A stretch of DNA of 64,000 nucleotides from a virus. The stretch is taken from the IMG/VR virus record IMGVR_UViG_3300037349_000099, positions 1-64,000 of that record; one strand, written 5' to 3'. A model generated the notes under the pieces. That model saw only the letters and a list, made by a program, of their open reading frames with translations. It did not search any database and was not told where the DNA came from. Shown piece by piece: positions 927 through 52,740 of this stretch. The position numbers and the translations under genes are program-made. The first letter of the stretch is position 1. Every line of letters begins with the position of its first letter.

Positions 927-1075
927 GAAGAGAGTCTCAACCCTCGTCGTATCCCTACCGGCGTTTCCTGACCTTGATGGAATGGACAGTGTGCGGCGCC
1001 GGCATCGTGTCTCTCGCGCTGTTCCTGGTCGTAATCGCAATGAAGCTCGGCCTGTTCGACGGGGTTGCGCAATGA
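923..1075 (+). CDS. Small membrane protein, GTG start
   Basis: A 50-residue product starting at a GTG that overlaps the preceding TGA (GTGA). A basic N terminus (RRESQPSSYPYRRF) is followed by one hydrophobic helix (about residues 22-44). Its end overlaps the next ATG by ATGA. The chain of overlaps supports a real gene. The role is unknown. Confidence 0.55.
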   Translation: MRRESQPSSYPYRRFLTLMEWTVCGAGIVSLALFLVVIAMKLGLFDGVAQ

Positions 1076-1308
1076 CCGATTGGACTCCTGATTGGGATCT
1101 GACCTCGATACCCGGCCCGCTTCTCCACTCGGAGACGGGCCGGCGTCGCGGGGCGCTGGCTCATTCGAAACCCAAGGTGATGCGTCCATGTGTGGGCTGC
1201 GGGCTTAACCTTGGGGCCAGAGAGCGGCGCCAGCCGTGCCCTAGGTGCGGAGCACGGCAGCCTAAGCCGGTGAAGAAGGTTCAGAAGCGACGCCGCGCTT
1301 CGAGGTAG
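1072..1308 (+). CDS. Small zinc-ribbon protein
   Basis: A 78-residue protein with two CxxC pairs, CVGC and CPRC, 17 residues apart, and a basic C terminus (KKVQKRRRASR). This is a typical zinc ribbon, possibly nucleic-acid binding. The start is chosen by the ATGA overlap with the preceding gene. It converges with, and overlaps the end of, a leftward gene. Confidence 0.6.
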   Translation: MTDWTPDWDLTSIPGPLLHSETGRRRGALAHSKPKVMRPCVGCGLNLGARERRQPCPRCGARQPKPVKKVQKRRRASR

Positions 1309-3262: not shown

Positions 3263-4032
3263 GTGAAGCACCCACCAGTGCAGCCGCGATCTGAGAACAT
3301 CGTGTGTTGGAGATCGAAGTCAACCGTGTCCAGTGGCTTGCATGATGGATGCAGCCAAAAGTGCGGGTCGCCCTCGCGCAACTCCCGCTCCACCTGGCAG
3401 GCTTTGGCGAAGTCCTCGGGCCAGTCCTGCTTCATTTCCCGCCACTCGTTGTCGGCAAGGTTCGGACACATCCAGCAGGCGGAGTGGGGTATTGGACCCA
3501 TCCAGCCGGTTGACCGGATAAGTTCGACACAATCCATCCGGCTCATGCGAACTTCAAACACGAGCGGGTAGCGAAGACTAAGCCAGTTGCGATGCTGGTT
3601 CCGAACGCGGCGCAACTCGTCCACGCTGATGCCCAGCCAATTCACCGCCGTCTGGATGCCAAGTGAGCGGAAATATCGCTCGGCGACATCCCGCTTCCAC
3701 TTGCCGGAGCAGAACCCGCTTAATTTGCCCATCTCACCACTCTGCGAAGTGAACCCAGGCAGCAGTATGGTCCCGTTGGCGCTCTTTAACCCTGCGTAGT
3801 CTTCCGAGACGAACGAGGCTACCGGAACGACAACCAACTCGCAGCCGACTTTAGCTATGTGAGGACGGATGAAGTTATCGACGAAGGGCCATGTGGAGGA
3901 TTTCTCCCGGCCAGTGTCGGTCATAAAGCATAAGTCAGGCTTCGGGAGCTTACCCTGCCCGATTAGCACAGCGATGGCGCCGCTTTGTGTGCCGCCGCCG
4001 CAGGACCAGATTTCCGTTCCGATGAGTTTCAC
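3259..4032 (-). CDS. PAPS-reductase-like PP-loop protein
   Basis: About 257 residues from the GTG at 4032. The N terminus has the PP-loop SCGGGTQSGA, as in phage members of the PAPS reductase/adenine nucleotide alpha-hydrolase superfamily, followed by PDLCFMTDTGREKSSTW. Several Cys/His residues in the C-terminal half (CWMC, and CTGGC at the end) could hold metal or act in sulfur chemistry. Family members activate a substrate with ATP; the phage versions have no settled role. It is the first gene of the leftward block and is coupled to the replication protein. A longer frame reaches 4176 but its extra residues look non-coding. Confidence 0.65.
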   Translation of the reverse strand: MKLIGTEIWSCGGGTQSGAIAVLIGQGKLPKPDLCFMTDTGREKSSTWPFVDNFIRPHIAKVGCELVVVPVASFVSEDYAGLKSANGTILLPGFTSQSGEMGKLSGFCSGKWKRDVAERYFRSLGIQTAVNWLGISVDELRRVRNQHRNWLSLRYPLVFEVRMSRMDCVELIRSTGWMGPIPHSACWMCPNLADNEWREMKQDWPEDFAKACQVERELREGDPHFWLHPSCKPLDTVDFDLQHTMFSDRGCTGGCFT

Positions 4033-19092: not shown

Positions 19093-19542
19093 ATGACCAA
19101 CGGAATTGTGTCACTCATAATCAACGGCCAAATGATGTTCAAACTGATCACCGACCATGACGGGCAGGCAGCGGGGGACGTTGCCGCGCGCATCCGTGCC
19201 ATGATTTCCCACAACGAGATGCCGACGGCGGCCAGCCTGCGGAGTGCAGCCATAGAGGAAGGCTTCGGCGCGGAGGATACGCTGATCATCGTGGAGCGTG
19301 GCCCGTGGGATGGCGCAACGGACCTGATTATCCATGCACCCTCGGAGATGGAGTGCGACTGGAACGAAGGAGAGAGCACCCGCTACCGGGATACCTTCGA
19401 CGTTCCGCAGTTCAATCCGCGCTGGAAGTTCGGGACTGCGCCGTATGTCGAGGTAGTGGAGTTGTGGGTGATTACATCCGCCGCCCCACTCGCCCCCGAC
19501 CCAGCCGCGCCGGCTCTTCCGCAGTCCGAACCTCTTGGCTGA
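19093..19542 (+). CDS. Hypothetical protein, last rightward gene
   Basis: A 149-residue protein, GGAGGGGAAGG before the ATG. Mixed alpha/beta, with WDGATDLIIHAPSEMECDW in the middle. Its 3' end overlaps the 3' end of the leftward large terminase gene by 71 bases, marking the convergence of the two transcription units. Confidence 0.6.
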   Translation: MTNGIVSLIINGQMMFKLITDHDGQAAGDVAARIRAMISHNEMPTAASLRSAAIEEGFGAEDTLIIVERGPWDGATDLIIHAPSEMECDWNEGESTRYRDTFDVPQFNPRWKFGTAPYVEVVELWVITSAAPLAPDPAAPALPQSEPLG

Positions 19543-21160
19543 GCTGGACTCTGTATATATTGAGGCTATGGCTGTCGAGTCCGGACTCCTGCATCGCCCG
19601 TAACTTCTCCTCGTTCTCCACCGCCTTGGGCTTCTTGCCGGGTTCCAGTTTGCTCTTGAGCGCATACCTGAAGGCGTCCGCGGTATCCATTTCGATGCGC
19701 GCCGTGGACTCATCCGTCTTCAAAACGTCGCTCAGGTCTTTCGGGTTGCGCATCAGCAGCGGGATCGAACTGATAAGTGCCGGGCAGTTGGCCGAGATGA
19801 GGATTACCTGGTCGTTCCGCTGGCCCTTGCGCTTGGTAGCCAGGAACAGCCGGGACATCAGCGACCAGCCGCCGGAGCGGTCATTGTCGGCCTGCCGGGG
19901 GTACGGCATCCCTGCCTCACTGAGAATCTCGCCCTGTATCTGCGCGATGGTGTTCTGGCTGCTCTTTTTGCCGAAGGCGTCGGGTGAAAGGAAGAAGTCT
20001 GACATCTGCTCGCGCTCGCGCTGCGGGGTTCTCTCGACGATCTGCGCGGCTACGTCCTGCTCGTCAAACTCGCCGGAGACATACTTGGCAGCATCGGCTT
20101 GCCTGTTCGTCTCGCCGCCCGCGATGTACTCCCGGTAGACGACGATCACTCTCAGGGTCAGCCGCACGTCCCAGTCAATGTATTTCTTCGCCTCCGCCGG
20201 CGACATCTCTCCATGGGCCATCCAGTAGGTTGGGCAGAAGTGTCCGCGTGCCCAGTCCTGCGCCAGCCACCGCTCCCACCACGGCTTGACCATCTCATCG
20301 ACCGTCTCGGGAGAAATGACCGTCGAGTTGCGGTCGAATGACTTGGCGAAGAACGCCCCTTCCAGTACATCCCACGAGCCGTAGAAGTCGCGCTTGACCA
20401 GCGCATCATCCTGGCTCATCAGGTCGCGCCCGTACTGGGAGCGGGTAGCGCAGTATTCGATGCGCTTCTTCTCTGGCCACGAATAGTAGTCTTCTGCTGT
20501 CAATCCATCCGCTTCGAGCGCCGGCCGCGACCACTCCACATTGTCATAGGGAAAGAAGTGGACGAACGTAAACTGCCGTGGGTCTTCGCGCTCGTTGTAC
20601 TCAAGGTCGTGGAACTTCTTCCGCATGAAGTCGATGCCCACCCCGCCCATATTGAAGAACAGCCAGAGCTTGCACGTGCCCTCGGGAACGCCGGGCCAGC
20701 GGACGGCTTGCTTGATTTCGCGGAGTTCCTCCTCAGTGAACTGCTCGGCCTGGTCGATGGCGATGTCGAAGTAGTTGGCGGAGCGGAACCGGCGGATTAC
20801 GTCTTTCAGCGTCTCAGCGTAAGTGAACTTGATGACGGATGGCGGTCCCTCTCGAAATGGAAGGGAGATGGTGCGCTCTCCCTTGTGGTATCCGGCTTCA
20901 AGCTGCGGCCAGGTCCGAATGATGGGCAGTTCGTGGTAGTCGCGCACCTGGTCCGAGTTGCGCATCACGATGGCGCCGATGGTGCCGGGGTGCATAAGAC
21001 GACGGGCCAGCATAACACGATGGATGCAGCCGGACTTGGCCCCGCCGCGACCGCCGCCGCCGCCCACCCAGGTTGCAGTCCCTTCCTCGATCTTGTCGAG
21101 AATCTCACCCTGCTTTGGTTGTAAAGAAATATAAGGGTTAAATACTGGAGTAGAGTCCAT
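19472..21160 (-). CDS. terL: Terminase large subunit
   Basis: A 562-residue packaging motor protein. Walker A is GGGGGRGGAKSG at residues 33-44 and Walker B FDIAIDQAEQ near residue 130. The C-terminal RNase H-like nuclease domain begins around AQDWARGHFCP (residue about 290) and includes SPDAFGKKSS. It cuts and pumps phage DNA into the prohead through the portal. AAAGG precedes the ATG; the same frame stays open about 100 bases upstream. It is the last gene of the leftward late region, far from the portal gene. Confidence 0.92.
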   Translation of the reverse strand: MDSTPVFNPYISLQPKQGEILDKIEEGTATWVGGGGGRGGAKSGCIHRVMLARRLMHPGTIGAIVMRNSDQVRDYHELPIIRTWPQLEAGYHKGERTISLPFREGPPSVIKFTYAETLKDVIRRFRSANYFDIAIDQAEQFTEEELREIKQAVRWPGVPEGTCKLWLFFNMGGVGIDFMRKKFHDLEYNEREDPRQFTFVHFFPYDNVEWSRPALEADGLTAEDYYSWPEKKRIEYCATRSQYGRDLMSQDDALVKRDFYGSWDVLEGAFFAKSFDRNSTVISPETVDEMVKPWWERWLAQDWARGHFCPTYWMAHGEMSPAEAKKYIDWDVRLTLRVIVVYREYIAGGETNRQADAAKYVSGEFDEQDVAAQIVERTPQREREQMSDFFLSPDAFGKKSSQNTIAQIQGEILSEAGMPYPRQADNDRSGGWSLMSRLFLATKRKGQRNDQVILISANCPALISSIPLLMRNPKDLSDVLKTDESTARIEMDTADAFRYALKSKLEPGKKPKAVENEEKLRAMQESGLDSHSLNIYRVQLSQEVRTAEEPARLGRGRVGRRM

Positions 21161-21260: not shown

Positions 21261-21896
21261 TCATTGATCCCCTTCCTTCTTTGTGCCCATGCGAATCAAC
21301 TGAAAAGCCATAGGCGCGCCATTAGCCCCGGTGTTCTCCACCTTCTCCTTGAGCATCCCGAACCGCTTGTAGGCGGTACTGAGCATTGTGGCTTTGACCG
21401 CCGCCGGCGTCTCCGTGCTGTCCAGCAGAGCAACCGTGTGGGAGTCGAGCAAGTCCTCGGTCAGTCCGCGAGCCCGCGCCCTGATTTCCGCCTTGGCTTG
21501 CTCTATCTGCTCGAGCTTCGCATCGATGATTGCGCGCACGGACGGCTTGCGCCAGTAGCCCGCGAGAATCGCAGGCTCAAGACCAACGACCCGCGCTACC
21601 TTGGTTACCGTCACTGTATGGTCGCGCGCTGGGAGATCGAGCCAGCACTCGATGGCCAGTTGAACCTTGGCGGGCAGGTGCAGAGCGCTGTTAACTATCA
21701 TGTTCGCCACAACCGTTGGCGTCGGCATTCCAGCGGCGGCTCTGGCCGCCTCGGCTGTAACCCTCTCCTCGGTTGCCTGATCGTCTTGGAGTTTCTGTTC
21801 TTTGGCTGCGTTTATCTCCGCCCGCGTCCTGCGGGGCTTACCCAGCGGGGTCAGTCTGCGCGGTGCTGCCTCTCCCGGCTTGCGTCCATTCGGCAT
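21261..21896 (-). CDS. terS: Probable terminase small subunit
   Basis: A 211-residue protein directly upstream of the large subunit. A basic N terminus (GKPRRTRAEINAAKEQKLQD) is followed by a helix-turn-helix region (TVTKVARVVGLEPAILAGYW) and a helical oligomerisation region. This order fits a small terminase that recognises packaging DNA. The assignment rests on position and the HTH pattern. Confidence 0.65.
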   Translation of the reverse strand: MPNGRKPGEAAPRRLTPLGKPRRTRAEINAAKEQKLQDDQATEERVTAEAARAAAGMPTPTVVANMIVNSALHLPAKVQLAIECWLDLPARDHTVTVTKVARVVGLEPAILAGYWRKPSVRAIIDAKLEQIEQAKAEIRARARGLTEDLLDSHTVALLDSTETPAAVKATMLSTAYKRFGMLKEKVENTGANGAPMAFQLIRMGTKKEGDQ

Positions 21897-22265: not shown

Positions 22266-25200
22266 TTATACCACCGGACCTACTGCCGGACCTTTGAATT
22301 TAGGCTTCGGATTCAAAGCGTCCGAGTAGGCTTTCTTCATCGTCACCTTTTGCTCCGCACTCATGTCGCTGTCGTCGTCAATAGTTCTCGCCTTGTGCCC
22401 AATCACCGGCCTGAGTTGTTTCTGCTCGTCCGGTGTGGCAGCAAGGTAGACGTTCAGCGCCTGCTCGTGATGCAGATCCCGCGTGGCTGCGACGATGGGC
22501 TGCACTCTAGCCTGAAACCTTGCTTTAGCCAGGTCGCTCTCGTCCAAGATGTCAGCCGTCTTATAGGCGTCGATCACCTTCTGATCGAACCCGGGCTTGC
22601 CTGTAGCTTTGGCTCGGTACATATCTTCGACAACATGCTTGGCATTGCGGCGGTCGGCCTCTCGCTGCGTCCTGGTGCCCGGCGTGTAGTTGGCGCGCTC
22701 GTAGTCCCGCGCCATGTTGACAGCCTTCGAGTTCTGGATGAAGGCGGGAGCTTGGTTGAAGCCGAAGAAACTCTCGGCAACTGGAGCCGGGTTATGGATG
22801 GCGGTCTGGATCATGGACCATGCGTTGTCTTGTGCGCCTCTCTCTTCGAGGAGATGGGCTGCTCCTGTGGCTGAGAACGGCAACTCCTGCTTTGCTGACC
22901 ACCCTGCGAACTCTTCGGCCTGCTTGGGCGCTGAGTCGTCCGTGTGCCGTATCTCGGTGCGGTAAAAGTCTTGGTTGTTGATCGCTTGACCGATGACACT
23001 CCAGAGCGGCGCAATCTTGTTGATGACCGTCTGTTCCGGATGCTTGACGAAACTCACGATCTGGTCCGGGTATCCCGCGATGGAGTGCATGATACCGTGT
23101 GAGTCCTCGATGTAGAGGTAGTGCAGTGGGTCTTTGGGAAGATGCCCCGTGCAGAGAAACGTGCCCGCCGCTCCCAGGATCGCCGTGCAGAGGAACGAAC
23201 TGAGGGCAAATGACATCCTCGGGGTGATCCTCGCCTCTTTCCCATGGCCGGTGGCGACAAGACCGGCAGCCTTCGCGGTGTCCACGATGGCTCCGCCGTA
23301 GATTCTCACGTCGCCATTGGTGTATCCAACCGCCCTGAATGTCAACTGCAGCGCATCTTTCAGCCCGCGAGGCCAGAAGCGATTCTCGTAAACGATCTGC
23401 CCGAACCTGTCGTCCACGGCGTCCCATGCCTCCTGCATACGCTCGCGGAGTTTTTCGGGTGTCCAGTTCTTTTTCTGCGCCTCTTCTAAAAGGTTGTGAG
23501 CCATCAGGTAGAAGGCTCCAATCTTCATCTTCGGCACCCAGAATTCAAGGACAGGCCACACGCCGGCTTGAAGCAGTGCGCCCGGCAGGGACTTCGCCTT
23601 ATCCCAATTGGTGCCGCTGTTCCACGCATTGATTGCCTTCCGAATCGGACTCAACTCCAGAGTAGATGGAGCAAGCCTTCCGCCCGATCGCGCAATCCAG
23701 TCGGCCTCCTTCTCCATCTCCGGGTAGGTGCCGGGCTTCATATACTCGCGGGTTGCCTTCCATCCGTTCTTGATGGTCCGTACCAGAGACGGCAGGAGGG
23801 CGATTCCGGCCAGAGCGTTGCCAGCGGCCTTGACGGGCTTGCCCTGGAAGAGCTGCTCGACACCCAGGGAAACATCAGATGCCGCCGCGTTGACGGTCGT
23901 AACCGTCGCGTGGAAGGCTGAGATGCCCAACTGCATAGCGTTGAGGTTATTGTTAGCCCAGCGCAGCGCGTCGAATATCGCAGACCGGCCCGCGAGTCCC
24001 TTGGACACGAAGTTGTTGAACACCTTGGCTGCATCAGCCGGGGCCCAGTAGTGGCCGGTGATGACCAGAGCTTTGCCGCTGGCATCTTCTAAGTCTTCGA
24101 TGGCAATGCTGGGGATGGGACGCTTGCCGCCCATGTAAGTCTTGTCGTAAGTCGCGCCCTCAACCTTCTGATCGTCGATCGTGGTGGCGCGGCGCCATAC
24201 TGTGCCGATCTTGTCGTCGATTTTGTCCCAGCCTTCCGGCGCTTGCGTTCCGGCTCTGACAAACTTGGCTGTCCCCGAGTCCTTAATCACCTTCAATAAC
24301 TGGTGCGCCATGATGAATTGGTCCATCTCGTAAATCTTCATCAGTGCGCCGCGGACAGGGTTCCATGTTGCCGGGGTGAGCCCGATGTCGATGCCGTCGC
24401 GCGTGGTGGGGATCTTCCGCTGCTTCCTGAATGACGCCTTGCCTTCTAGTGGGCGCTTGCCGACGCCCATGAACTTCTTAATCGTCTTGCGGGCTAGACT
24501 GGGGCGCTCCCACCAGTGGGCGAAGTAGTTGTCGATCCAGTCATTGATTGGACCAAAGCCCATGGCGTCGATGTAGTCCTTGCGCTCCTGATACGCCTTC
24601 TCAAGTATCCCGGCCAACTGCTGATCCTTCACACTGAGGTCGGCCACTGTCTTGCCGCCAACATGCTCCACAGCATCGGCAAAGGCTAGAAAGTCAGCCC
24701 TGGGGCGCTTGTCCCATGCGTTCGACTCCTGCTCCAGCGCAGCCAGCGCGCGGGCCATGCGGCGGTCCATCTGGCCACGCTCCTCGCGCATGATAGCTTG
24801 CTGAGTCTTTCCGGGCGTGGGACCGTCGCCAGCCCACTGGTAGATGCCGCCAGCCATGCCGGGGAATAGTTGGTTGACAACTGCGGGGTTGAGGAAGCCG
24901 AAGGCGGAGAGGGTGCCGGAGTCGGGGAGGTTGGCGCCACGACCGCCCTGCAGGAACTTCTTGGCCGTGTCTTTCGGGCTGGAAGGTTCCGGACCATCCT
25001 CTACGTCGTCGCCCTCTTCCTCTTGTTCCTCTGCCGGCTCAGGCTCTGCGCTGGTATCGACCTCTGCTGCGGTCTCTTCCTTGTCCGCCTGCGAACCAGA
25101 GTTGACGTTGCCCAGACCGAGGCGCTTCTCAACCTCATCAAGATCGGCGCGGACCTTCTCCAGTTCCTTCTGCTCGGGGAACTCCTCGCGATCGGCGAGC

Positions 25201-28200
25201 TTCTGGAATTGGGGCTTGTCCTCTTCGTTGGCCGCAATCGACTTGACTTCGCGCGCAATATGCTTCGGGATGCTGCGCATATTGGCTTCAATGGAGCGCA
25301 CGAGCGACTCCATCGTGTACTGAGGCGCGCGGTTGTTGTGGAAGTAACTGCTGGATTCCTCGAACTCCAGGTCATAAGAGACGGAGGGAACGTCTATCCA
25401 GTGGGTCCCGTCCTTGCCGATGACATTAGGGTCATGCTCCTTGATGGTTCCCGTCGGATCAACCGATACCTCGACCCCGTTTACCTTCATATAGAAGCGA
25501 ACCCCGGGTATGGCCATCGCTTCGATGTACTCGCCCGCCGATTTGCGATCGGTGAACTTCTTGCCGTCAACCTCCATTGTGAAGCCGTCGCCGTCCGGTC
25601 CCTTGGCCTTGTCGATGGCTGCCTGGGCCAACTCCATGCGAATAACGGCGCGCTTTGAGCTGGCTATGCTGCTATCGATGCTGCGCACTCTGGAGTGCGC
25701 ATCCCGCTTCGATGCCTCAAACCCGCGCTCCACGGTCTGCAACTGCGCCAGCTTCATTTCGAGGTCGTACTTGAGCTTGATGTCGGGATTGCCCGACGCG
25801 GCAACCTTCATCTCCTCCAGCGACATAACCATATCCGCGGCTGCATCGGTAATCGTGCGGCTGGCAGAACGTCCGGAAAGAATCTGCGAGAGGAACTCGG
25901 CTTTCGATTGCAATGTTTGAGCCATGTACGCGTCGAAACTGCGCTCGGTCAGGTAGTTGTAGATCCGCACCGACTTGTTCATGTTCCCTTGGCGCAGGAT
26001 GCGACCCTCGCGCTGGGTGAGGTCGCCAGGCCTCCAGGTAAGGTCGATGTGATGGAGAGCTTTGAGGCGCTGCTGTGCGTTCGTACCTGCGCCCATGCGC
26101 TGCGTTGACCCCAGCAGGATACGGACGTCGCCAGCGTTCACCCGTTCAAACAAGGCTTGGCGTTTCGCCCTGGTGTTGTAGTCCCCGATGATGGCGATTT
26201 CCTCGGGCTTGACCCCGCCGTCGATCAACTTCTGCCGCATGTCTTTGTATAGGTTGAGGAGTTCGTTGTCCTTGTCGTCCGTCGCCCGGTACATATCGAG
26301 GAAGACCATTTGCGTGAGTTTATCTTCCTCGCCCGCACGGTGTTCCTTGAGGATTTGGCGGACGGCAACATTGATCTTCGAATCAACCTCGTCCTTGATT
26401 GCAGCGTCCAGCAGGCGCAGGTCTGTGGCAGCCTTCCGGCCCTCGCTCGTGACCTTGAGCATGTTGTCTTCGTCGGGGCGCACACTACCGCTCCGGATGG
26501 CCTCCGCGCGCTGCATCAGGTCTTTGACAACCTCGTCGAGCTTCTCGGAGCCTGGGACCGTGATTACGATGGGCTTGCCACCTTCAAGCTCTGGCCGCTT
26601 TAGATTCAGGTCGGCCGCCGTCTTCACATCGGCAAAGGCGCGGAACATGCGCATCAACTCTGGCACGTTCTGGAAGCGAGCAAACTTGGACCGGGCCTTG
26701 AAGCTGCGCCCGTCTGCCGAGAGTTCCATCGCCGTGATGACGCTGCCGAAGTTGGCCGCCCAGTCGTCGAAGTATTTGATTCCGGCGCGCTCCAGCACGT
26801 CTGGCGCAACATACTTCATCATCGTGTAGAGTTCGGCCATCGTGTTCTGTACGGGTGTTCCTGTGGCGAAGAAGACGCCGCGGCCGTTGTTTACTTCCTG
26901 CAGGTACTGGAGTTTGGCCAGAAGACGGAAGGACCGTTTCGAGTTCGCCTGCTGCAATCCGGCAATGCGCTGCATCTTCGTGAAGTATTTGAGGTTCTTG
27001 TACTCGTGCGCCTCGTCGATAAACAGGGCATCCACGCCGGTATCGTCGAACCCGATGGCCTTGTCGGCCTTGAGGTCGGAGAGTTCCTTCAACCTTTCCT
27101 TGAACTGGAGACGGGACTTCACCAACTGCTTGACCGTTTGGCTCTTGCGCTTCTGCTTGTCCGACGCTGCTTTCGCTTCGGCCTGTTCAATGGTCAATCC
27201 TGCGTAATCCGGGTCGTCGGCAATCGCGCCGCGCAGCGCATCGTCCAGTTGATCTATCTCGCCCTGGATCGTCTTCTTCTGGCGCTCGGGCGAGATGTCC
27301 ATGAGGTTGAACTGGGAGTGGGGCAGGATGATGCAGTCGTAGTCGCCGGTCGCAATCTGGCTCATAATGCGCTGGCGGTTCTTCGAGTCGAAGTCTTTCT
27401 CGGTCGGCACAAGGATGTTCGCACCGGGGTAGAGAAAGAGAAACTCTTTGCGGAACTGGTCGACGATATGGTTGGGCACGGCGATCATTGGCTTCTTGAA
27501 GACGCCAGTGCGCCGGCCTTCCATAACCGCAGCGACCATTTCGAACGTCTTTCCAGCGCCAACCTCGTGCGCAAGCAGCGCGCGCCCGTCCTGAATCATG
27601 CGCCAGATGGCATTGACCTGGTGGGGTTCGAGCTTGATTTCCGGGTTCATGCCCGGGAAGGTGAGGAAACTGCCGTCGTACTCCTGCTCGGCCAGGTTGT
27701 TGAAAGCGTAGTTGTACGCCTTTTCCAGTGGCTCTTTCCAGTCCTTCGAGTTCAGTGCCCACTTCTGGAACTCCTGCCGGATACGCTCCTGCATGGCGCG
27801 GGCATTGGTGGTCTCATCGGCATTGAGTATCTGCTTCTTATCTACGATGTCGTAGATCGTGGTCTGCTTGAGATTTAGCGCGTCTTGCAACAGGTCCGCA
27901 CCATGGATGCGCTGGGTAGCCCACTGGTTCGTGTTCTCCGGTGTGCGGGAGTTGTCGAGTTCCACGCTCCACGTTCCATCTGTGTATGTGAATGTGCCAT
28001 CGCTCTTGAATGTGTCTTTGGCGAACTGCTCCAGGGCTGGGATGGGAATCCACGTTCCACCGAGCCGAACAGAAATGCTGGTCGCCGGATCGTCGGTGAT
28101 GTGGAGGAATGCAGGCTGCACCTTTTCCAGTGCATCGACGTTGGCCTGGTACTCTTTGTTGCCCTGGGCGACCGCTGCTTTGGCGTCGTCGAGTTTGGTC

Positions 28201-31200
28201 CGGACATAGCCAGAAAGGTACTTCTCGCGGGTTTGGTACTCGCCACTGATCGGGTCACGGAACAGCACACCAGCATCTATCAGGCTCTGCGCAGCCTCCT
28301 TGGGCGTCTTGCCCTGGAGTTGCGCCATGAGGTCAACGTCGGGGTAGCCGCGCTCGGCAAGGACTTGCTGCAGAGCTTCGCCGGGGTCTTGAGAGATGGA
28401 CGTGAGGGACTGCCGGGGGTAGATGGTGCGCTTGCGGAAGATGTCGGCGGGTGTCGATTCCTTCTTTGCCCGGTCGTAGTTCTCCAAGGCCAGCAGGCGA
28501 GGATAGTGCGGATCTTCATTGAAGATGCGGTTAGCCGTTGAGTTGACCAGCCCGTACTGCTTGACGAACGAGTTGTACTGCTTTTCGAGTTGCGCGCGGG
28601 AGTGGGCAATCTGCTTGTTCGATGCCTCATCGTCAGGCAGTGTCTTCATTTCGTAGAGCAACCGATTCATCGTCTCCCGCAACTTAACCATCGCCTTGAT
28701 GCGCGAGGTTTTCGGGATGCTCTTGATCTTCCCCTTGTCCATGGCCGCCGGCGGATAGACAAGTTTCCCCTCCCGCCGCTGTTTGAGGATGCCCTTGTCG
28801 TCCACAACGTACTGATATTCCTGCACGTTGTCCTCAGCGTAGACGGCCTCGGTCTCTGCCTGGTTGGCGCCGGTCGGCTTCGGTGCCGTCTTGACGATGT
28901 TCTTGGGGATGCGGTCGAGGGCTTCTTTCAACAGGTCGGCGATTGGCCGCTCTGGTTTCTTCAAGGCGAATCGCTGGTTGCCGCGCATCTTTTTCGACGA
29001 TACTGCGGTTCCAAGCATATTTTCTGGGTGCGCCAGATAATACTCGTTGAATGGATGCTCGTGCATTTTTCCCGGCTCCTGCTCAAGCGGGAACTTTGTA
29101 GGCACTGCTTTCATCCACGACTCGCCGCCGGGTTCCTCGCCTGGAAGCCGCTTGCGCAGGATGATGAGGTCGGTCGTTACGTCCGTGCCGGCGTTCGCCT
29201 TGAACGCGGAGGATGGAAGGCGGAAGGCGGAAACAAGGTCGGCCTGTCCTGCCAGGGCCTCACGAATGGCGGAACTCTGCCGGTCCATGGTGCCCGTCGA
29301 AGTGATGAAAGCGACCAGCCCGCCGGGTTTCACCTTGTCCATGGACTTCACGAAAAAGTAATCGTGGAGCATGGCATTGAGTTTGGGATAGTTGCGGTCG
29401 TAGACGTTGACTTCGAAGAATGGGACGTTGGAGATGGCGAGGTCCATCTCGTTGTTGGGCAGGATCAGGTCTTCGAATGGCTTATTGAATATCTGCGCCT
29501 CGGGGTAGAGGAGCTTAGAGATTCCAGCCGAGACCGTATCTTTGTCGTTTCCAACCGCCTGCACCTTGGAGCGGATCTCGGGCGGCATCATGCCCAGGAA
29601 GTTGCCCACTCCCATGGCTGGCTCAAGCACGTTGCCGGACTTGAAGCCCATCTTCTTCACTGCATCCCACATGAACCGGACCAGCTCGGGAGATGTGTAG
29701 TGAGCGTTGATGGTCGAGTCTTCGGCTTCCTTGTACTCGTCTGGCGTCAGGAGTTCCCTGAGCCGCTTGTTGGCCGCTCTCCACCGTTCGCGCTCACGCT
29801 TGTACTCGGGGGTCTCTGTGGCCTTGTTTTTCCAGTAGCGGGCCTGATAGTCGTAGCCGCCTTCGGGGCTGTAGTCCTCGGGCGATTCTTCTTCGCGGGA
29901 CTGTTTGAGGTACTCCTCATTGAACACGCGCGAGAGCGCACCCCAGCCGACGTAATTGGCGAGCTTAGTCTTTTCGTCGTCTGTGGCTTTGCGGGGGTTC
30001 TGCTGGATGTCGCGGAGAATCTCAAGGGCTGCCATGTTGCCATCGAGCTTGGCGAGAGGACCGCCGGATATGGCCCAGTCCTCGGGATGCTCGTACCAGT
30101 CCTTGTTGCGCCTAGGGGTCGGCTTGCGGGATTCCTTCTCCGCTTCCTCTATTACTGGTCCTGCCGGGGAAAGATCAATTCCCTCATCGCTTCCCGCCCC
30201 TGGTCCGGGTTGTGGCCGGCCGCTTCGTACTCTTGGAGCACCCGGACGCACGACAGGGCCGTGTTCTTTATCGCCTTCTGGAGATAGTTCTGATTTATCA
30301 GTTCCCTCACGAACGCTTTCCGGTGCTGGCGCCACTCCCGCTCTATCTCGGCCTCCAGTATCGGCAGCCGGGCGTCCTCCTCCGGTTTCACTTCGACTCG
30401 TGGGCTCATGGGGTGCCTCCGTGCTGGGTTTAGTTTCCTCCTTCTCCACAGATTTTTCAACAGGCTTCTCGACTCGACCCGCGCTGCTGATCCTCATGCC
30501 GGGATACTTCTCGGCCAGCAACTGCTCGGCATGGCGTCGGTTCTCGGCCTCGATCTGGACCGTCTTCGGGTGCGGATCGCCAGCGTACTTCGAGACTTCG
30601 GCCTCGTAGGTGTGCATTTCCGGCTTCGCACCTAGCGGGCTCGTCCCGGCCATTGGCGCTACCTGGGGAGTCGGAGGCTTGTAGAAGGAGCGTGCGGGCT
30701 TCGCGGCACTGACCTTCCGTCCTGCTTCAACGTAAAGTTTGTTTGCCTCTGAGCGTGGAATGTCCAACTGCTTCGCAATCTCGTCCACGACCCCGCCAGG
30801 ATTGAACCTCTCCATGTCCGGGTTTGCTTTGATTATTGCGGCAGCCTGAGAAACTTTGTCTTCTACTTCTTCTTTCCCTTCCCCACCGCCTTGCTGACCC
30901 AGTGGCTTTTCTTCGCCGGCGGCATGGGCATCTGCTGCTGGCTTCCGCTCATCGGCGGCGCCTGCGGGTTTGGCTCCGGCATTGGAGCCTGCTGGTTTTT
31001 CTTCTTGCGGAACATCGACGCTCCGCTGACTCGCTGTTTCTGCATCGGCATTTGGTTTGCCGCTGATCCCAGGTTTTGCTGCATTGTTGTTATTCCCTTC
31101 CGGCTGCGGTTCAGCCAATAGCTTGCCTGTGTTGCGCTCGACCGGCACAGCCCTGTCGTCGTACAGGGATACCATGTGCGGGTCCTTCACATCAGTCACG

Positions 31201-34007
31201 TCCAGGCGCTTGCCGACGTGCTTCTCGGTCCAGTCCTGAATCGCCTTCTTGACCTTGCCGTCCTTGTCGTCGGCCACGCGCGCGGTCAGGATCTTGACGT
31301 TGTTCCCCTCGGCCAGCCACTTCTTGATGCGGTCGACCATCGGCTGAATCGGTTCGCCTATGACGGTTGGACCCTTGAAGCCGTCGTAGTGGGCCAGCGT
31401 CCCGTCGAGGTCCACGCCGATCCACTTGTCGCCCTTGGCTTCGGGCTGGGCTGATTCGGCAGGCTTTGAGCCACCCTCTTCCACCTTGCCCGCAACTGGC
31501 TGATTCTGCGCGGGTGGGGACTGGACTGATTCTTGGAATAGTTTGCGCTCCGCTTCCGCGACCGCCGTTCCCCATGCTTCGGTGTCGTCGGGATTCAGTC
31601 CACGGCTCAGGAGGTCGCTCTTGATCTTGCGATACTCCTCTGGGGTAATCTCTCGCTCCGCCTTCTTCTCTTCTGGCTTCAAACGCTCAAATGGCGCTGC
31701 TGGCCATGCGCGCCCGTCGTCGGTCTTGACCCCAGCAACCTTGCGCTTCGGATCAACGTGCGTCACAGTGCCCGGCTTCTTGCCGTCCATCAGAACGCGG
31801 TCGCCCTTCTTCGGGGTGAAGGGGGTTTCCTGTTTTGGCACATCATTTGAGGCGTCGGGCGTGGTAGATGAGTTGCGCTGGTTGAAGGACTCCATCGCGG
31901 CATCGTGCGCAGCCTTGACTAAGCTCGCGTACTGGCGATGCTGGTCCATCTTCCCAGCGATCCTTGCGCGCTCCCCTTTTTCGTAGTCGGGATGCGTCAG
32001 GTCATTGACCGCCGCAATCTCTTTCGGCACCACCTGGAGTTCCGCCGAGTTCCCGTCCGGCGTCTTGACCTGGAACGTGTGCGACCGGAAGCCGTAAGGG
32101 TCGGACCCCTTCTCAAAGTTGTCCTGCTCGCGCACGACCTGAAAGCTGTCCTTGATCTTCTGCGCTACCTGATCGCGCGCCGCTGGTGAGTCCACGACGA
32201 TCCGGCCGCCGAGGTAGTCGGGAATGGTTTCCGCCGGCTGCTTCTCCTGGTCCAGCTTCTCGGCCAGGTCCGCCGGAGCCTTCTTCTCGCGGATGCCCTC
32301 AACTTTTGCGCCCGGTATGCCTTGGACCGTCGCATTGGCCTGCCGCTCCAGCCACGGAGCCTGGGCCTGCGCCGCCTTCTGCAAGGTGGCAGGGTTATCC
32401 GTCGATTGCAGGATCTGGCGTCCGGTGTCGGGTTCGTGCTTGCCGATGGGCTGTGGCTGGTTCGTCGCCTGCGCTGTGGCTGGCTGGAGAGGCTTGGGGG
32501 CATCCTTGGGTGGTACGGGGCGCGCGGGGACGGACGCCATGATTGCCGCGGCGAGCGCCTTGGCGTCGGATGGCTTCGGCGTGCTGCCTTTGTCCGGTGC
32601 AACCTGGGCGGGTTCGGGCGAGAGAGGTTTGCCAGAGAGCGCATCGGCCGCCGTGGCAAGGTTGGCCTGCTGGGGCGTGTTGGGCGCTTTCCCGGTCTGG
32701 GTGTTACGCACTGCCTCATCGAGTAGAGAGGATACAGCAGCATGCGCGTCGGCTGCGCGGTTGGCTCCCTCCATATCGCCGCTCTCGTGAGCGCGCCGAC
32801 CCGTCTCGTCGATTGCGTTCAAGAGAGCTTGGTTTTCGGCTGGCGTCTGGCTTGTCACCTTTCCGCGATGGTCGGCAACTATCTGATCCAGGAGTGATTG
32901 TTCTGCGTTCTGCGCCTGTGGGACCGGGGGTTGTTCCGGTACCGGCTTGGGACCGGCGTGGATGGTGGTCCCTTGCTCGCTCTCCGGGCCTTGTAGGGTA
33001 TCGAAGATGTCGGCGGCGGTCGGGGTAGGCGGCTTTGGCGTCGGCGTCGGCGCGACAGTTTCGGGAACTTCTGGTGCTCCGAGTGGCTTGCCGCTGAGGG
33101 CGTCGGATGCGGATTGAAGATTGGGAGGGGGAGATTGAGGTGTTGGCGCTGGACTCGGTGCAACCTGCTCAGGTACAGGCGGCGCGGCGGGCGGCTGGTT
33201 GGCGTTGATGCCTTTGCCTGCGCGGACAATCTCATCGGTGGCGGCAAGGTTATCGAGGTTGGGTGTCATTGTCGGCCCGGCTGGGCGTGGACTTGTGGGC
33301 GGAGGCTGGCCGCGCAGTTCGGCGGCACGGGCATTGCGTAGCCCCTCCCAACCTCCCAAGTCACGCGCTCCGAGCAACGCCGCAGCAGCTTGTGGCGCTC
33401 CAACCGTTACGGCTGCGAGTGCATCGCTTTCGTTGCCTGCTCCCTCTCCGGGGTTGGCATTTTGGATGAAGCGACCGGCAACCGGCACGGCTTGGATAGC
33501 ATGAGCGATGCTGGAGTATGGGTCTCCGCCCCTATAGGCGTCTACCGCTTTTCCTGCCTCCCCAGTCGCCCGCATGAACTCGCCACCGACTCCCTCCGCA
33601 ACCTGCACGGCGGGACCGCCAAGAGCTTCGGCGGCATTCCTGAACGGATGCCCCTCGAGGTCTTCTATTCTCTGATCCCGCATCAGATTGGACTCTGCCA
33701 CCGTGGCAGGGAGTCCAAGGTTGTGAGCCACCTTACCGATGTAGCTAGGTTCCGACTGGTTCGCTACAGCCTGCTCCGCTGGCGAAAGCGGCAACTGCTT
33801 GTTGTTCGGGACTGGCACACCTGGCCGGTTCTCAATGTCCTGCTGATATTGACTCTGCGGCTGCGCGGGAGCCTGCGCTCGCTGTACGGGCGCTGCCTTC
33901 GCTGGCGCTGGACCTTGCAGGCTATAACCGGGAGGCGGAGGAGGAGGGTCGGAATCTTGGAGGTCATATCCCGCTGGAGGAGGAGGAATCGTTGCGGCTG
34001 AGCCCAC
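22266..34007 (-). CDS. Giant polyvalent protein: RelA/SpoT-like, HAD, N6-methylase and SNF2-type helicase regions
   Basis: A 3913-residue protein (GTG start, GAGG upstream), by far the largest here. Residues 1-540 are Pro/Ala-rich. About 550-700 is RelA/SpoT-like (DYLGGRIVV, PYGFRSHTFQV, AELQV). About 855-960 is HAD-like (VDLDGTLAHYDG, KILTARV). Around 1450-1540 is a DNA N6-methylase (NVLEPAMGVGNF, ISNVPF). About 2130-2700 is an SNF2-type helicase (HEVGAGKT, FIDEAHEYKN, QREGRILRQGN). The final 1000 residues are helical, like other large polyvalent proteins. Phage P1 DarB also joins methylase and helicase and is packaged in the head to block restriction. Its place among virion genes suggests injection with the DNA. 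Confidence 0.9.
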   Translation of the reverse strand: MGSAATIPPPPAGYDLQDSDPPPPPPGYSLQGPAPAKAAPVQRAQAPAQPQSQYQQDIENRPGVPVPNNKQLPLSPAEQAVANQSEPSYIGKVAHNLGLPATVAESNLMRDQRIEDLEGHPFRNAAEALGGPAVQVAEGVGGEFMRATGEAGKAVDAYRGGDPYSSIAHAIQAVPVAGRFIQNANPGEGAGNESDALAAVTVGAPQAAAALLGARDLGGWEGLRNARAAELRGQPPPTSPRPAGPTMTPNLDNLAATDEIVRAGKGINANQPPAAPPVPEQVAPSPAPTPQSPPPNLQSASDALSGKPLGAPEVPETVAPTPTPKPPTPTAADIFDTLQGPESEQGTTIHAGPKPVPEQPPVPQAQNAEQSLLDQIVADHRGKVTSQTPAENQALLNAIDETGRRAHESGDMEGANRAADAHAAVSSLLDEAVRNTQTGKAPNTPQQANLATAADALSGKPLSPEPAQVAPDKGSTPKPSDAKALAAAIMASVPARPVPPKDAPKPLQPATAQATNQPQPIGKHEPDTGRQILQSTDNPATLQKAAQAQAPWLERQANATVQGIPGAKVEGIREKKAPADLAEKLDQEKQPAETIPDYLGGRIVVDSPAARDQVAQKIKDSFQVVREQDNFEKGSDPYGFRSHTFQVKTPDGNSAELQVVPKEIAAVNDLTHPDYEKGERARIAGKMDQHRQYASLVKAAHDAAMESFNQRNSSTTPDASNDVPKQETPFTPKKGDRVLMDGKKPGTVTHVDPKRKVAGVKTDDGRAWPAAPFERLKPEEKKAEREITPEEYRKIKSDLLSRGLNPDDTEAWGTAVAEAERKLFQESVQSPPAQNQPVAGKVEEGGSKPAESAQPEAKGDKWIGVDLDGTLAHYDGFKGPTVIGEPIQPMVDRIKKWLAEGNNVKILTARVADDKDGKVKKAIQDWTEKHVGKRLDVTDVKDPHMVSLYDDRAVPVERNTGKLLAEPQPEGNNNNAAKPGISGKPNADAETASQRSVDVPQEEKPAGSNAGAKPAGAADERKPAADAHAAGEEKPLGQQGGGEGKEEVEDKVSQAAAIIKANPDMERFNPGGVVDEIAKQLDIPRSEANKLYVEAGRKVSAAKPARSFYKPPTPQVAPMAGTSPLGAKPEMHTYEAEVSKYAGDPHPKTVQIEAENRRHAEQLLAEKYPGMRISSAGRVEKPVEKSVEKEETKPSTEAPHEPTSRSETGGGRPAADTGGRDRAGVAPAPESVREGTDKSELSPEGDKEHGPVVRPGAPRVRSGRPQPGPGAGSDEGIDLSPAGPVIEEAEKESRKPTPRRNKDWYEHPEDWAISGGPLAKLDGNMAALEILRDIQQNPRKATDDEKTKLANYVGWGALSRVFNEEYLKQSREEESPEDYSPEGGYDYQARYWKNKATETPEYKRERERWRAANKRLRELLTPDEYKEAEDSTINAHYTSPELVRFMWDAVKKMGFKSGNVLEPAMGVGNFLGMMPPEIRSKVQAVGNDKDTVSAGISKLLYPEAQIFNKPFEDLILPNNEMDLAISNVPFFEVNVYDRNYPKLNAMLHDYFFVKSMDKVKPGGLVAFITSTGTMDRQSSAIREALAGQADLVSAFRLPSSAFKANAGTDVTTDLIILRKRLPGEEPGGESWMKAVPTKFPLEQEPGKMHEHPFNEYYLAHPENMLGTAVSSKKMRGNQRFALKKPERPIADLLKEALDRIPKNIVKTAPKPTGANQAETEAVYAEDNVQEYQYVVDDKGILKQRREGKLVYPPAAMDKGKIKSIPKTSRIKAMVKLRETMNRLLYEMKTLPDDEASNKQIAHSRAQLEKQYNSFVKQYGLVNSTANRIFNEDPHYPRLLALENYDRAKKESTPADIFRKRTIYPRQSLTSISQDPGEALQQVLAERGYPDVDLMAQLQGKTPKEAAQSLIDAGVLFRDPISGEYQTREKYLSGYVRTKLDDAKAAVAQGNKEYQANVDALEKVQPAFLHITDDPATSISVRLGGTWIPIPALEQFAKDTFKSDGTFTYTDGTWSVELDNSRTPENTNQWATQRIHGADLLQDALNLKQTTIYDIVDKKQILNADETTNARAMQERIRQEFQKWALNSKDWKEPLEKAYNYAFNNLAEQEYDGSFLTFPGMNPEIKLEPHQVNAIWRMIQDGRALLAHEVGAGKTFEMVAAVMEGRRTGVFKKPMIAVPNHIVDQFRKEFLFLYPGANILVPTEKDFDSKNRQRIMSQIATGDYDCIILPHSQFNLMDISPERQKKTIQGEIDQLDDALRGAIADDPDYAGLTIEQAEAKAASDKQKRKSQTVKQLVKSRLQFKERLKELSDLKADKAIGFDDTGVDALFIDEAHEYKNLKYFTKMQRIAGLQQANSKRSFRLLAKLQYLQEVNNGRGVFFATGTPVQNTMAELYTMMKYVAPDVLERAGIKYFDDWAANFGSVITAMELSADGRSFKARSKFARFQNVPELMRMFRAFADVKTAADLNLKRPELEGGKPIVITVPGSEKLDEVVKDLMQRAEAIRSGSVRPDEDNMLKVTSEGRKAATDLRLLDAAIKDEVDSKINVAVRQILKEHRAGEEDKLTQMVFLDMYRATDDKDNELLNLYKDMRQKLIDGGVKPEEIAIIGDYNTRAKRQALFERVNAGDVRILLGSTQRMGAGTNAQQRLKALHHIDLTWRPGDLTQREGRILRQGNMNKSVRIYNYLTERSFDAYMAQTLQSKAEFLSQILSGRSASRTITDAAADMVMSLEEMKVAASGNPDIKLKYDLEMKLAQLQTVERGFEASKRDAHSRVRSIDSSIASSKRAVIRMELAQAAIDKAKGPDGDGFTMEVDGKKFTDRKSAGEYIEAMAIPGVRFYMKVNGVEVSVDPTGTIKEHDPNVIGKDGTHWIDVPSVSYDLEFEESSSYFHNNRAPQYTMESLVRSIEANMRSIPKHIAREVKSIAANEEDKPQFQKLADREEFPEQKELEKVRADLDEVEKRLGLGNVNSGSQADKEETAAEVDTSAEPEPAEEQEEEGDDVEDGPEPSSPKDTAKKFLQGGRGANLPDSGTLSAFGFLNPAVVNQLFPGMAGGIYQWAGDGPTPGKTQQAIMREERGQMDRRMARALAALEQESNAWDKRPRADFLAFADAVEHVGGKTVADLSVKDQQLAGILEKAYQERKDYIDAMGFGPINDWIDNYFAHWWERPSLARKTIKKFMGVGKRPLEGKASFRKQRKIPTTRDGIDIGLTPATWNPVRGALMKIYEMDQFIMAHQLLKVIKDSGTAKFVRAGTQAPEGWDKIDDKIGTVWRRATTIDDQKVEGATYDKTYMGGKRPIPSIAIEDLEDASGKALVITGHYWAPADAAKVFNNFVSKGLAGRSAIFDALRWANNNLNAMQLGISAFHATVTTVNAAASDVSLGVEQLFQGKPVKAAGNALAGIALLPSLVRTIKNGWKATREYMKPGTYPEMEKEADWIARSGGRLAPSTLELSPIRKAINAWNSGTNWDKAKSLPGALLQAGVWPVLEFWVPKMKIGAFYLMAHNLLEEAQKKNWTPEKLRERMQEAWDAVDDRFGQIVYENRFWPRGLKDALQLTFRAVGYTNGDVRIYGGAIVDTAKAAGLVATGHGKEARITPRMSFALSSFLCTAILGAAGTFLCTGHLPKDPLHYLYIEDSHGIMHSIAGYPDQIVSFVKHPEQTVINKIAPLWSVIGQAINNQDFYRTEIRHTDDSAPKQAEEFAGWSAKQELPFSATGAAHLLEERGAQDNAWSMIQTAIHNPAPVAESFFGFNQAPAFIQNSKAVNMARDYERANYTPGTRTQREADRRNAKHVVEDMYRAKATGKPGFDQKVIDAYKTADILDESDLAKARFQARVQPIVAATRDLHHEQALNVYLAATPDEQKQLRPVIGHKARTIDDDSDMSAEQKVTMKKAYSDALNPKPKFKGPAVGPVV

Positions 34008-35543
34008 TTACTTTACCTCATTGCCTGTCTGCGGATCGCGCCATGCGCCGCCGCGGTAAACAACGCTTCCCTTGGGTCCGGTCGCCACATGCTCGCCAGG
34101 TGTGGCTGGGCCTGCGAAACTCTGCGGCGCATTGGCCTTCGCTGCGGGGGCTGCTGGCGCCGCCGGACTCGCCGCGGACTGTGCTGTCGCCGATGGGAGT
34201 AGGTGACTGACCGCGCTACCGTCTTTCCTTCGCCAGACAAGGTTTTCATCCACTGTCAGCGGGTCAACTGTCTGACCGCGCCGCGTGAGTTCGTCCTCGT
34301 AGGCGTCCTGTGTCGCTTGCATATCCGTCTGGGCTGCCTTGATTGCATCAGGGTCGTTTGGAGCCTTATTCAGCGCATCCTGCGCTTTGGTAACGGCCTT
34401 GTCCTTTGCCCTCGCCGCCGCATCTATTGCTCCCCGCGTCTCTTTGTCCTGGGCAATCGAGGTTCGCTTATCGAGGCGCTGGTCGGCGCGATCTGCCGCT
34501 ACTCCTGCGCTATCGTCCTTGAGTTGCTGATAGAGTTTCACTGCCTTTCCGAGCAAAACCTTCTTGGCGGGATCGGTCTCCATACTGAACTTCATCGCCA
34601 GAGCAACAGGATTCGACGGCAGTTTGTCGCCGGACTGGTCTGCGAGTTGCTGCTTGATCTGCTCAAGTTGCTGGTTGTAATCGGCCTTCTGGTTGGCAGT
34701 TTGCTCGGCGACCTCATCCTTAGCGACATTTCCGAAAGCTGTCCCCATCCCGCGCGCCTCTGAGCCAATATCCTTTTGGCGGTCGCTTTCGGCCTTATAG
34801 TTGGACAGGTTGCGGTCTTCCTGCTGCTGGATGACTGCGGCCTGGCCTTGGCGCGCCGCTTCCGCGGCCTGGTAGTTAGAGTTCGGAGCGTTGATGGGAG
34901 CGTTGCCCATGCGCTTGGGGAAGATGGCCCGGAGTATCTTAGTGCCAGTTCCCGGCTTGTAAAGTTCCGAGGGGTTGATAGTCTCTCCGGTCTCCGGGTC
35001 CACTGCGGAGGTCAGAACCTTGCCTGTCTGCGGGTCACGGTAGGGGATTGGCGCGGCAAGAGCTTGTCGCCGTTGCTCAAGTGGGGCGTTCTGAGCACTT
35101 GGCCCTGGGGTGTTTTGAAGAGCCGCGGAGGACTGGGCCGCCCGCCCTGCCGCATCAAGTGCTCCCTGTTGCGCCTGACTGAATCTTTGGTACCCGTCAT
35201 TCGCCCATGACTTTGGCGCTCCCCTTGCGGCTGGCCCATTGCCAGATGGAGTAACGGCGTTGGGAGTCGCCGCTGGCTTCGGTTGCGCCGGTGGAGGCGT
35301 CTGGATAGCCTGTCCGTTCGCCTGCGCGCCTGCGCGTATCGCCTGTGCCGCGTTCGAGGCTGGCGCTTGGGGCATCGCGCCAGATGTCGGCTGCGCGGGT
35401 GCCTGTACGCGCTGTGGGGCGTTTGCTGCCGCCAACTGTGCGCCCTTATCGCCACTCCCATCAGCGGGCGGATTGAGCAGGTTGCTAAGGAGTGCGCCTA
35501 GTTTTTCGTCGTCGGACTGGTACATGGGGCCTTCATCGGCCAT
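34008..35543 (-). CDS. Probable internal virion protein, Ala/Gln/Pro-rich
   Basis: A 511-residue protein abutting the giant gene. The N-terminal 140 residues are disordered (Ala/Pro/Gln). A long helical region with Gln-rich coiled coils (ADYNQQLEQIKQQLADQSGD, then RADQRLDKRTSIAQDKE) follows, then an Ala/Pro tail ending GAWRDPQTGNEVK. RDPQTGKVLTSAVDPETGET near residue 170 is a short repeat-like motif also echoed at the end. It is probably a core or ejection protein co-packaged with the polyvalent protein; this is inferred from position and composition. Confidence 0.55.
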   Translation of the reverse strand: MADEGPMYQSDDEKLGALLSNLLNPPADGSGDKGAQLAAANAPQRVQAPAQPTSGAMPQAPASNAAQAIRAGAQANGQAIQTPPPAQPKPAATPNAVTPSGNGPAARGAPKSWANDGYQRFSQAQQGALDAAGRAAQSSAALQNTPGPSAQNAPLEQRRQALAAPIPYRDPQTGKVLTSAVDPETGETINPSELYKPGTGTKILRAIFPKRMGNAPINAPNSNYQAAEAARQGQAAVIQQQEDRNLSNYKAESDRQKDIGSEARGMGTAFGNVAKDEVAEQTANQKADYNQQLEQIKQQLADQSGDKLPSNPVALAMKFSMETDPAKKVLLGKAVKLYQQLKDDSAGVAADRADQRLDKRTSIAQDKETRGAIDAAARAKDKAVTKAQDALNKAPNDPDAIKAAQTDMQATQDAYEDELTRRGQTVDPLTVDENLVWRRKDGSAVSHLLPSATAQSAASPAAPAAPAAKANAPQSFAGPATPGEHVATGPKGSVVYRGGAWRDPQTGNEVK

Positions 35544-52643: not shown

Positions 52644-52665
52644 TGTTGCCTCGATGTGCTTTGCG

Positions 52666-52740
52666 CGGGGCGGGCCGGATTTGAACCAGCGACCTTCCCG
52701 TTACTGACAGGATGCTCTAAGCAGGCTGAGCTACCGCCTC
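52666..52740 (-). tRNA. tRNA, Asp-like scaffold with altered anticodon arm
   Basis: A full cloverleaf, read leftward. Acceptor GAGGCGG/CCGCCCC (one A-C mismatch at position 2), TA, D stem GCTC/GAGC, A26, anticodon stem TCCTG/CGGGA with loop TCAGTAA, variable loop AGGTC, T arm GCTGG-TTCAAAT-CCGGC, G73. No CCA is encoded. Read this way the anticodon is AGT with C33, which is abnormal. Overall it resembles tRNA-Asp (GGGGCGGTAGCTCAG type, TGTCA near the anticodon, G73), so it may be a degenerate or modified tRNA-Asp. Confidence 0.7.

Follow-up and report, generated by a model that had tools for sequence, protein, structure and literature searches.

Described DarB-like and polyvalent proteins

DarB of phage P1 is located in the head and shields the injected DNA in cis against type I restriction; it is packaged via its N-terminal 30 residues, as tested with a reporter (PMC5512222, PMC9024508). 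A much larger protein of the same build, gp69 of Burkholderia phage JC1, was detected in CsCl virions with 51 unique peptides; mass spectrometry has placed both JC1 gp69 and P1 DarB in virions (PMC9144972, PMC9024508). RelA/SpoT, GGDEF, and 2H domains in polyvalent proteins have been interpreted as ejected effectors by Iyer et al. 2017 (PMC5512222).

The protein considered here is encoded in the virus record IMGVR_UViG_3300037349_000099, of which 64,000 of 66,075 bases (the window) were analysed. Like P1 DarB (2255 aa), it carries an NVPF-type N6-methylase followed by an SNF2 ATPase; P1 DarB differs in that its best matches are PHROGs 1685 and 11801 and in that the scans run here detected neither a Rel, HAD, or 2H domain nor a C-terminal carrier of this kind. 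The Bcep22-like giants (JC1 gp69, 4515 aa; DC1 gp67; PEp14 gp27) share the large size and a methylase-helicase that is 32–36% identical, and the JC1 gp69 gene is preceded by a virion gene of ~500 aa; a gene of 511 aa precedes the window gene. However, their N-termini contain lytic transglycosylase/endolysin and minor-head regions, and their C-termini are unrelated to that of the window protein by profile comparison (hhalign probability 1%), so that a shared C-terminal module was rejected.

The polyvalent class was described in 2017, as were its methylase-SNF2 dyad and the occurrence of RelA/SpoT and 2H domains within it; the proteins of Iyer et al. 2017 share with the window protein a methylase-SWI2/SNF2 pair, which they carry in a module with LPD36, and RelA/SpoT, and GGDEF and 2H were also described. 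The earlier note on this DNA had called the added Rel and HAD regions unusual. The first had thus already been described, whereas the HAD part of the claim stands because Iyer et al. 2017 do not mention HAD (PMC5512222), and the HAD domain appears to be new to the polyvalent repertoire. As far as the literature consulted shows, what is new relative to the described class is that HAD joins the combination, that HAD also occurs in permuted form, that cassettes are naturally swapped at a single locus, that the carrier is unclassified, and that a short motif is duplicated at the N-terminus.

Domain architecture and proposed role

The earlier note had read one frame as a polyvalent protein that combines a RelA/SpoT-like region, a HAD-like DxDGT region, an N6-methylase, and an SNF2-type helicase with HEVGAGKT and DEAH, followed by 1000 helical residues. 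The 3913-residue frame exists and lies on the minus strand (Table 1), and the regions were borne out: the RelA/SpoT-like region by profile matches that are all (p)ppGpp synthetases in the PDB and by an agreeing predicted fold, the HAD-like region by all four motifs and by tblastn and PHROG matches, the methylase and helicase by motifs and profiles that agree, and the helical tract by a model in which ~880 residues are predicted to be mostly helical. Matches to PHROG 10089 and P1 DarB uphold the DarB-like assignment; relatives of the same build are found in virions (PMC9144972, PMC9024508). Several predicted domains that are biochemically unrelated share one polypeptide near late genes, as is characteristic of polyvalent proteins.

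Table 1. Features of the giant gene and its neighbours in the window, in order of position.
Feature	Residues (aa)	Position	Strand	Basis or remark
Terminase large subunit (TerL)		19472..21160	-	PHROG 2, E=6.9e-19
211-aa gene directly downstream, small-terminase position		21261..21896	-	no family match
Giant polyvalent protein gene	3913 aa	22266..34007	-	full-length homologue of 4124 aa in L001
C-terminal carrier module, mostly helical	3032-3913	22269..24914	-	dN/dS 0.11
SWI2/SNF2-type ATPase	2069-2800	25608..27803	-	HEVGAGKT 2147, DEAH 2331, ATGTP 2381, QREGRILRQG 2665
N6-adenine DNA methylase	1430-1640	29088..29720	-	NVPF at 1527
GWGA-motif region matching LPD36 signature GXG[GAS]	1335-1429	29721..30005	-	motif
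Slot: 2H phosphoesterase in L001, L004, L005; short stretch in window	1047-1106	30690..30869	-	
HAD phosphatase-like domain	859-968	31104..31433	-	sequence; D866xD868, T908, K941, D950D951
Small Tudor/KOW-like beta-barrel	729-781	31665..31823	-	predicted model, weak evidence
RelA/SpoT-like domain (small alarmone synthetase fold)	535-720	31848..32405	-	profile and predicted fold
N-terminal Pro/Ala-rich region, probably disordered	1-538	32394..34007	-	composition; fast evolving
Duplicated N-terminal motif (PPPPAGYDLQ / PPPPPGYSLQ)	8-31	33915..33986	-	candidate packaging/docking tag
511-aa gene directly upstream		34008..35543	-	syntenic; no family match

We infer, with a probability of about 0.7, that this is a modular polyvalent ejection protein that would be packaged, ejected, and protective of the DNA, with Rel and HAD domains acting on host nucleotides. 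It would be loaded into the head during assembly via the N-terminal tag and/or the C-terminal helical carrier, and would enter the cell together with the DNA. The SNF2 motor would then travel on the incoming DNA, and the methylase would meanwhile modify or occlude the sites of type I restriction, as P1 DarB does. Host nucleotides would be the immediate target of the two other domains, with the Rel-like domain making and the HAD domain trimming phosphorylated nucleotides, which would have the effect of damping host transcription and translation or blunting nucleotide-based defence; the 2H phosphoesterase of sister phages could have the same nucleotide-acting role.

This reading is based on the DarB-family core and the virion packaging of JC1 gp69 and P1 DarB; on an alarmone-synthetase fold that retains D597, R602, and E656, and complete HAD motifs; on the location of the gene immediately ahead of the terminase, in a conserved neighbourhood, and on its low dN/dS; and on a C-terminal module common to polyvalent proteins with PBECR nucleases or a RadC/SNF2 build. 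A nucleotide-signalling role is favoured over a purely structural one because the 2H, GGDEF, and histidine phosphatase domains that occur as companions act on nucleotides or phosphates. Against the reading, the divergence of the neighbouring genes is too great for a virion module to be proven from them, and the Rel domains of three relatives (L004, L058, and L062) look degenerate. If the ejection reading is correct, an alarmone-type enzyme made in advance enters the cell along with an anti-restriction machine, and host shut-down or blunting of defence would begin ahead of any phage gene expression.

Methylase-helicase core

PHROG 10089 ("DarB-like antirestriction") matches aa 1405–2997 (E=0), Pfam matches in the core comprise SNF2, ResIII, and Helicase_C, and BLASTP of the core against P1 DarB gave 30% identity for the methylase (4e-23) and 25% for the helicase (1e-22). 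The helicase Walker A, DEAH, and motif VI (2665) are intact. By homology and domain order, the window protein belongs to the DarB-like methylase-helicase antirestriction family. The G-W-G of the preceding GWGA motif (aa 1354) is invariant in all eight aligned homologues; the likeness of this region to LPD36, for which GXG[GAS] is the described signature (PMC5512222), is one of motif, without a profile match.

With the core as query, tblastn matched 123 phage records, 53 of them with ≥80% coverage, and a search of IMG/VR matched 321 loci. The NVPF motif, which had been noted as an oddity in place of NPPY, is not anomalous and was dismissed as such, since P1 DarB (catalytic loop VVGNVPF) and many relatives carry it (24 of 87 core-bearing ORFs, with NPPF in most of the remaining ones). 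For Pseudomonas phage Itty13 (L006), the real DarB-like ORF of 4112 aa and the deposited CDS features are on opposite strands, which is likely a misannotation.

RelA/SpoT-like and HAD domains

The Pfam RelA_SpoT model matched the window protein with E=1.5e-4 and its homologues in L001, L004, and L013 with E of 4e-5, 7e-5, and 5e-4, respectively, each below the gathering cut-off. A five-homologue profile run against the PDB retrieved exclusively (p)ppGpp synthetases, 19 sequences with a best E of 7.5e-7. As a query for extra Rel-domain relatives, the alignment of five sequences proved too divergent, and degenerate patterns found just two contigs that were already known. AlphaFold2 predicted aa 535–720 as a confident domain (pLDDT mostly 75–90), for which the best Foldseek matches were RelP/SAS1/SAS2 (E 3e-7) and VIA-align superposed 175 residues on SAS1 at 2.8 Å (Z 17.6). 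The region is therefore modelled as a Pol-beta-type RelA/SpoT-homologue synthetase fold, similar to the folds of SAS1/RelQ, SAS2/RelP, Tas1, and CapRel at 16–18% identity. In the same model, the putative beta-barrel that follows scored a VIA Z of about 8 to PHF1 Tudor and Spt5 KOW. Pairing of Rel with the methylase-helicase is rare, since only a handful of the 87 core-bearing ORFs carry a Rel domain (L001, L013, L058, and L062).

The window Rel domain retains R573, K584, D597-x-x-G600-x-R602, S642/H643, E656, and Q658. In contrast to SAS-type enzymes, which have the Ser of RxKxxxS and the Arg of EIQIRT, it is embedded in a phage giant and lacks both this Ser and the RT of ExQIRT, reading ELQVVP where EIQIRT is usual; the product or activity of the domain is therefore uncertain, although catalytic activity is plausible from the residues retained. 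The DxxGxR signature is gone from the Rel domains of L004 (DIAAAK), L058, and L062, which may be inactive.

In the HAD domain, superfamily motifs I–IV (DxDx[TV], T/S, K, DD) are all present, with motif I reading DLDGT, and the domain shares 50–60% identity with stand-alone HADs of many phages by tblastn; a PHROG also matches. A phmmer search against the PDB gave no useful match, and the assignment rests on sequence because the structure model has low confidence in the HAD region. Between the window and L001 the domain is 100% identical, with six synonymous changes and no others.

The altered ELQVVP and RxKxxxS motifs, and the loss of DxxGxR in the three relatives, would also suit a protein that is packaged and anti-restrictive but whose Rel-like and HAD domains have no catalysis left and act as spacers or as decoys that bind nucleotides. 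We regard this as unlikely, given that D, G, R, S/H, and E are retained in both the window and L001, that Rel has a dN/dS of 0.17, and that the HAD domain keeps its four motifs under exclusively synonymous change. It is somewhat less probable again that the Rel-like domain is a payload against competitors or defence triggers rather than a means of host takeover, either as a toxSAS-type toxin or as a CapRel-type tRNA pyrophosphokinase. Fold matches do include the type VI effector Tas1 and CapRel/FaRel, and Apk2 is a known case of an alarmone synthetase fused to MuF in a phage (PMC12691689); however, classical SAS1/SAS2 match best (Z 17.6 vs 14.5), and there is no recognisable adjacent immunity gene.

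In the slot corresponding to the window HAD, the L004 and L013 giants carry HAD domains in which the motif I strand (YVDFDDTL and YVDLDGTL, respectively) sits at the domain end. Restoring the canonical order raised the scores slightly, and in L013 both parts then aligned in one piece; shuffled controls gave background scores near zero. On this sequence comparison the two HADs are circularly permuted, with L013 the best supported.

Exchange of modules between sister phages

As judged from sequence comparison, internal enzyme modules are exchanged at one locus between sister phages while the flanks are kept. The L001 giant encodes Rel, HAD, 2H, methylase-helicase, and carrier; those of L004 and L005 encode Rel (degenerate), permuted HAD, 2H, a 570-aa stretch, and carrier, without methylase-helicase; and that of L013 encodes Rel, 2H, permuted HAD, methylase-helicase, and carrier. 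A histidine phosphatase (L014) or GGDEF (L015) is found together with 2H and methylase-helicase in two further loci. The 2H phosphoesterase is absent from the window giant, and there is no copy elsewhere in the 64-kb window; the linker beside its slot (aa 1106–1129) is common to the window, L001, and L004 (70 bases, 88–90% identity). The window gene is also a mosaic, with its HAD identical to that of L001 and its carrier DNA 92% identical to L004 and 77% to L001. Two mixed alignments for folding were set aside, as partial rows were misplaced. These natural swaps between the same flanks concern whether the methylase-helicase and 2H are present and whether HAD is canonical or permuted, and they offer a comparison of module against defence countered.

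The 2H phosphoesterase of the relatives has weak similarity to the anti-CBASS protein Acb1. The stretch of ~570 aa that replaces the methylase-helicase in L004 and L005 (L004:13622-15331, aa 1272–1841) has no Pfam or PHROGs match, and ~205 aa between 2H and methylase in the L001 giant (aa 1219–1423) have no homologue among the other loci compared.

C-terminal carrier module

In the predicted model (pLDDT 71, pTM 0.68), helices make up most of the final ~880 residues. This module has no Pfam or LPD model: a Pfam scan of 18 members gave no family at a meaningful score, and annotated phage records gave no match. LPD38 (PF18857) was rejected as its identity, with no match in aa 3032–3913 or in 17 relatives; a weak LPD38 match in L093 lies upstream of the module only. 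Prophage-like proteins of Nitrospirae, Geobacteraceae, Syntrophaceae, and other genomes end in the same module at ~30% identity, and the cargo ahead of related modules includes PBECR3 (L093), PBECR2 (L094), and SNF2 with RadC (L104). Its modelled fold resembles the tails of LPD-annotated proteins, and comparison with BFVD gave matches (E to 1e-12) to models that bear the labels large polyvalent protein, ART-PolyVal, RelA/SpoT, and type I methylase. There was no significant fold match in the PDB, which does not prove a new fold. An HExxH zincin-like sequence is inserted mid-module in L080, L099, and L100 and is lacking from the window copy; these inserts fit the idea of Iyer et al. 2017 that polyvalent proteins undergo self-processing (PMC5512222).

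N-terminal region and duplicated motif

Within its first 31 residues the window protein has two copies of the motif PPPP[AP]GY[DS]LQ. Different motifs are duplicated at the N-termini of other members: QKPWESF in Pseudomonas phage 8P, DPYA[AS]IA in L004, and IDWxxGTLT in L065, each twice (motif regions from 9809 on in L004, from 3677 on in L065, and from 5576 on in L070). A duplicated motif was found in 17 of 58 non-redundant family N-termini vs 1.3% of shuffles and of internal stretches, at a self-similarity threshold that was chosen after the data had been seen and with many start codons uncertain. In the DNA available for the same phages, a search of other proteins found no convincing copies of the motifs.

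The duplicated motif may be a packaging tag, which is the obvious hypothesis because the first 30 residues of P1 DarB contain its capsid signal. Should the motif serve for loading, it would show how such proteins of >400 kDa enter heads. We put forward, tentatively and with more doubt than confidence, a standardised delivery in which unrelated giants share a duplicated N-terminal tag and a helical carrier tail that, along with the DNA, bring exchangeable cargo into the host, in this case including an alarmone synthetase and a HAD phosphatase; the tag would vary by phage as it docks to the phage's own head or portal.

Genomic setting

The giant gene starts with GTG at 34007, and its frame is intact over 3913 codons without a stop. 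The GAGG-type ribosome site is inside the last codons of the upstream gene, the stop of which abuts the GTG. A syntenic gene set is present in the independent contigs L001 and L004/L005 (69–95% identity to the window, order kept); the 511-aa upstream gene has 73–79% identity in L001, L004, and L005 and 32% in L013, and the 211-aa downstream gene 83% in L001, L002, L004, and L005. Between the window and L001, dN/dS was 0.14 for the methylase and 0.18 for the helicase, with the Rel domain and C-terminal module at similar values, vs 0.31 for the N-terminal Pro/Ala-rich region and 0.73 for linkers, and the enzyme domains and C-terminal tail are read as being under purifying selection. The giant ORF is judged a genuine coding gene because of the synteny with L001 and L004/L005, the full-length L001 homologue, and a dN/dS of 0.11–0.18.

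The earlier note had placed the gene among virion genes and directly before the terminases. TerL is indeed two genes downstream, with the conserved 211-aa ORF between, but most neighbouring genes in the window match no family (Pfam, PHROGs) and no phage record (tblastn). The proximity to terminase genes, and the fact that packaging of the window protein is deduced from relatives, would be compatible with a protein that is not ejected but acts in the producing cell, for example as a methylase-helicase made late to counter rival phages or to help in packaging. This is improbable, as the same-build JC1 and P1 proteins are virion components and the C-terminal module groups with polyvalent tails, both of which favour ejection. 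An assembly artefact or a chimera of separate genes, suggested by the extreme length and the mosaic similarity to L001 and L004, is for practical purposes ruled out by the full-length 4124-aa homologue of identical domain order in the independent contig L001, by relatives of 3400–5500 aa in dozens of contigs, and by the purifying selection.

Upstream, window positions 41968–62337 (minus strand) contain long ORFs of which nearly none match PHROGs, Pfam, or annotated phages, and the phage is therefore distant from known phages. A single tRNA-Thr gene (anticodon AGT; 52665–52740, minus strand) lies inside the presumed late-gene stretch. The TerL genes of L001 (19914–22835) and L004 (18588–21191) contain an in-frame intein-like insert of ~300 aa (CFVAGTPVW...FFANGILVHNC), whereas the window TerL is uninterrupted by it.
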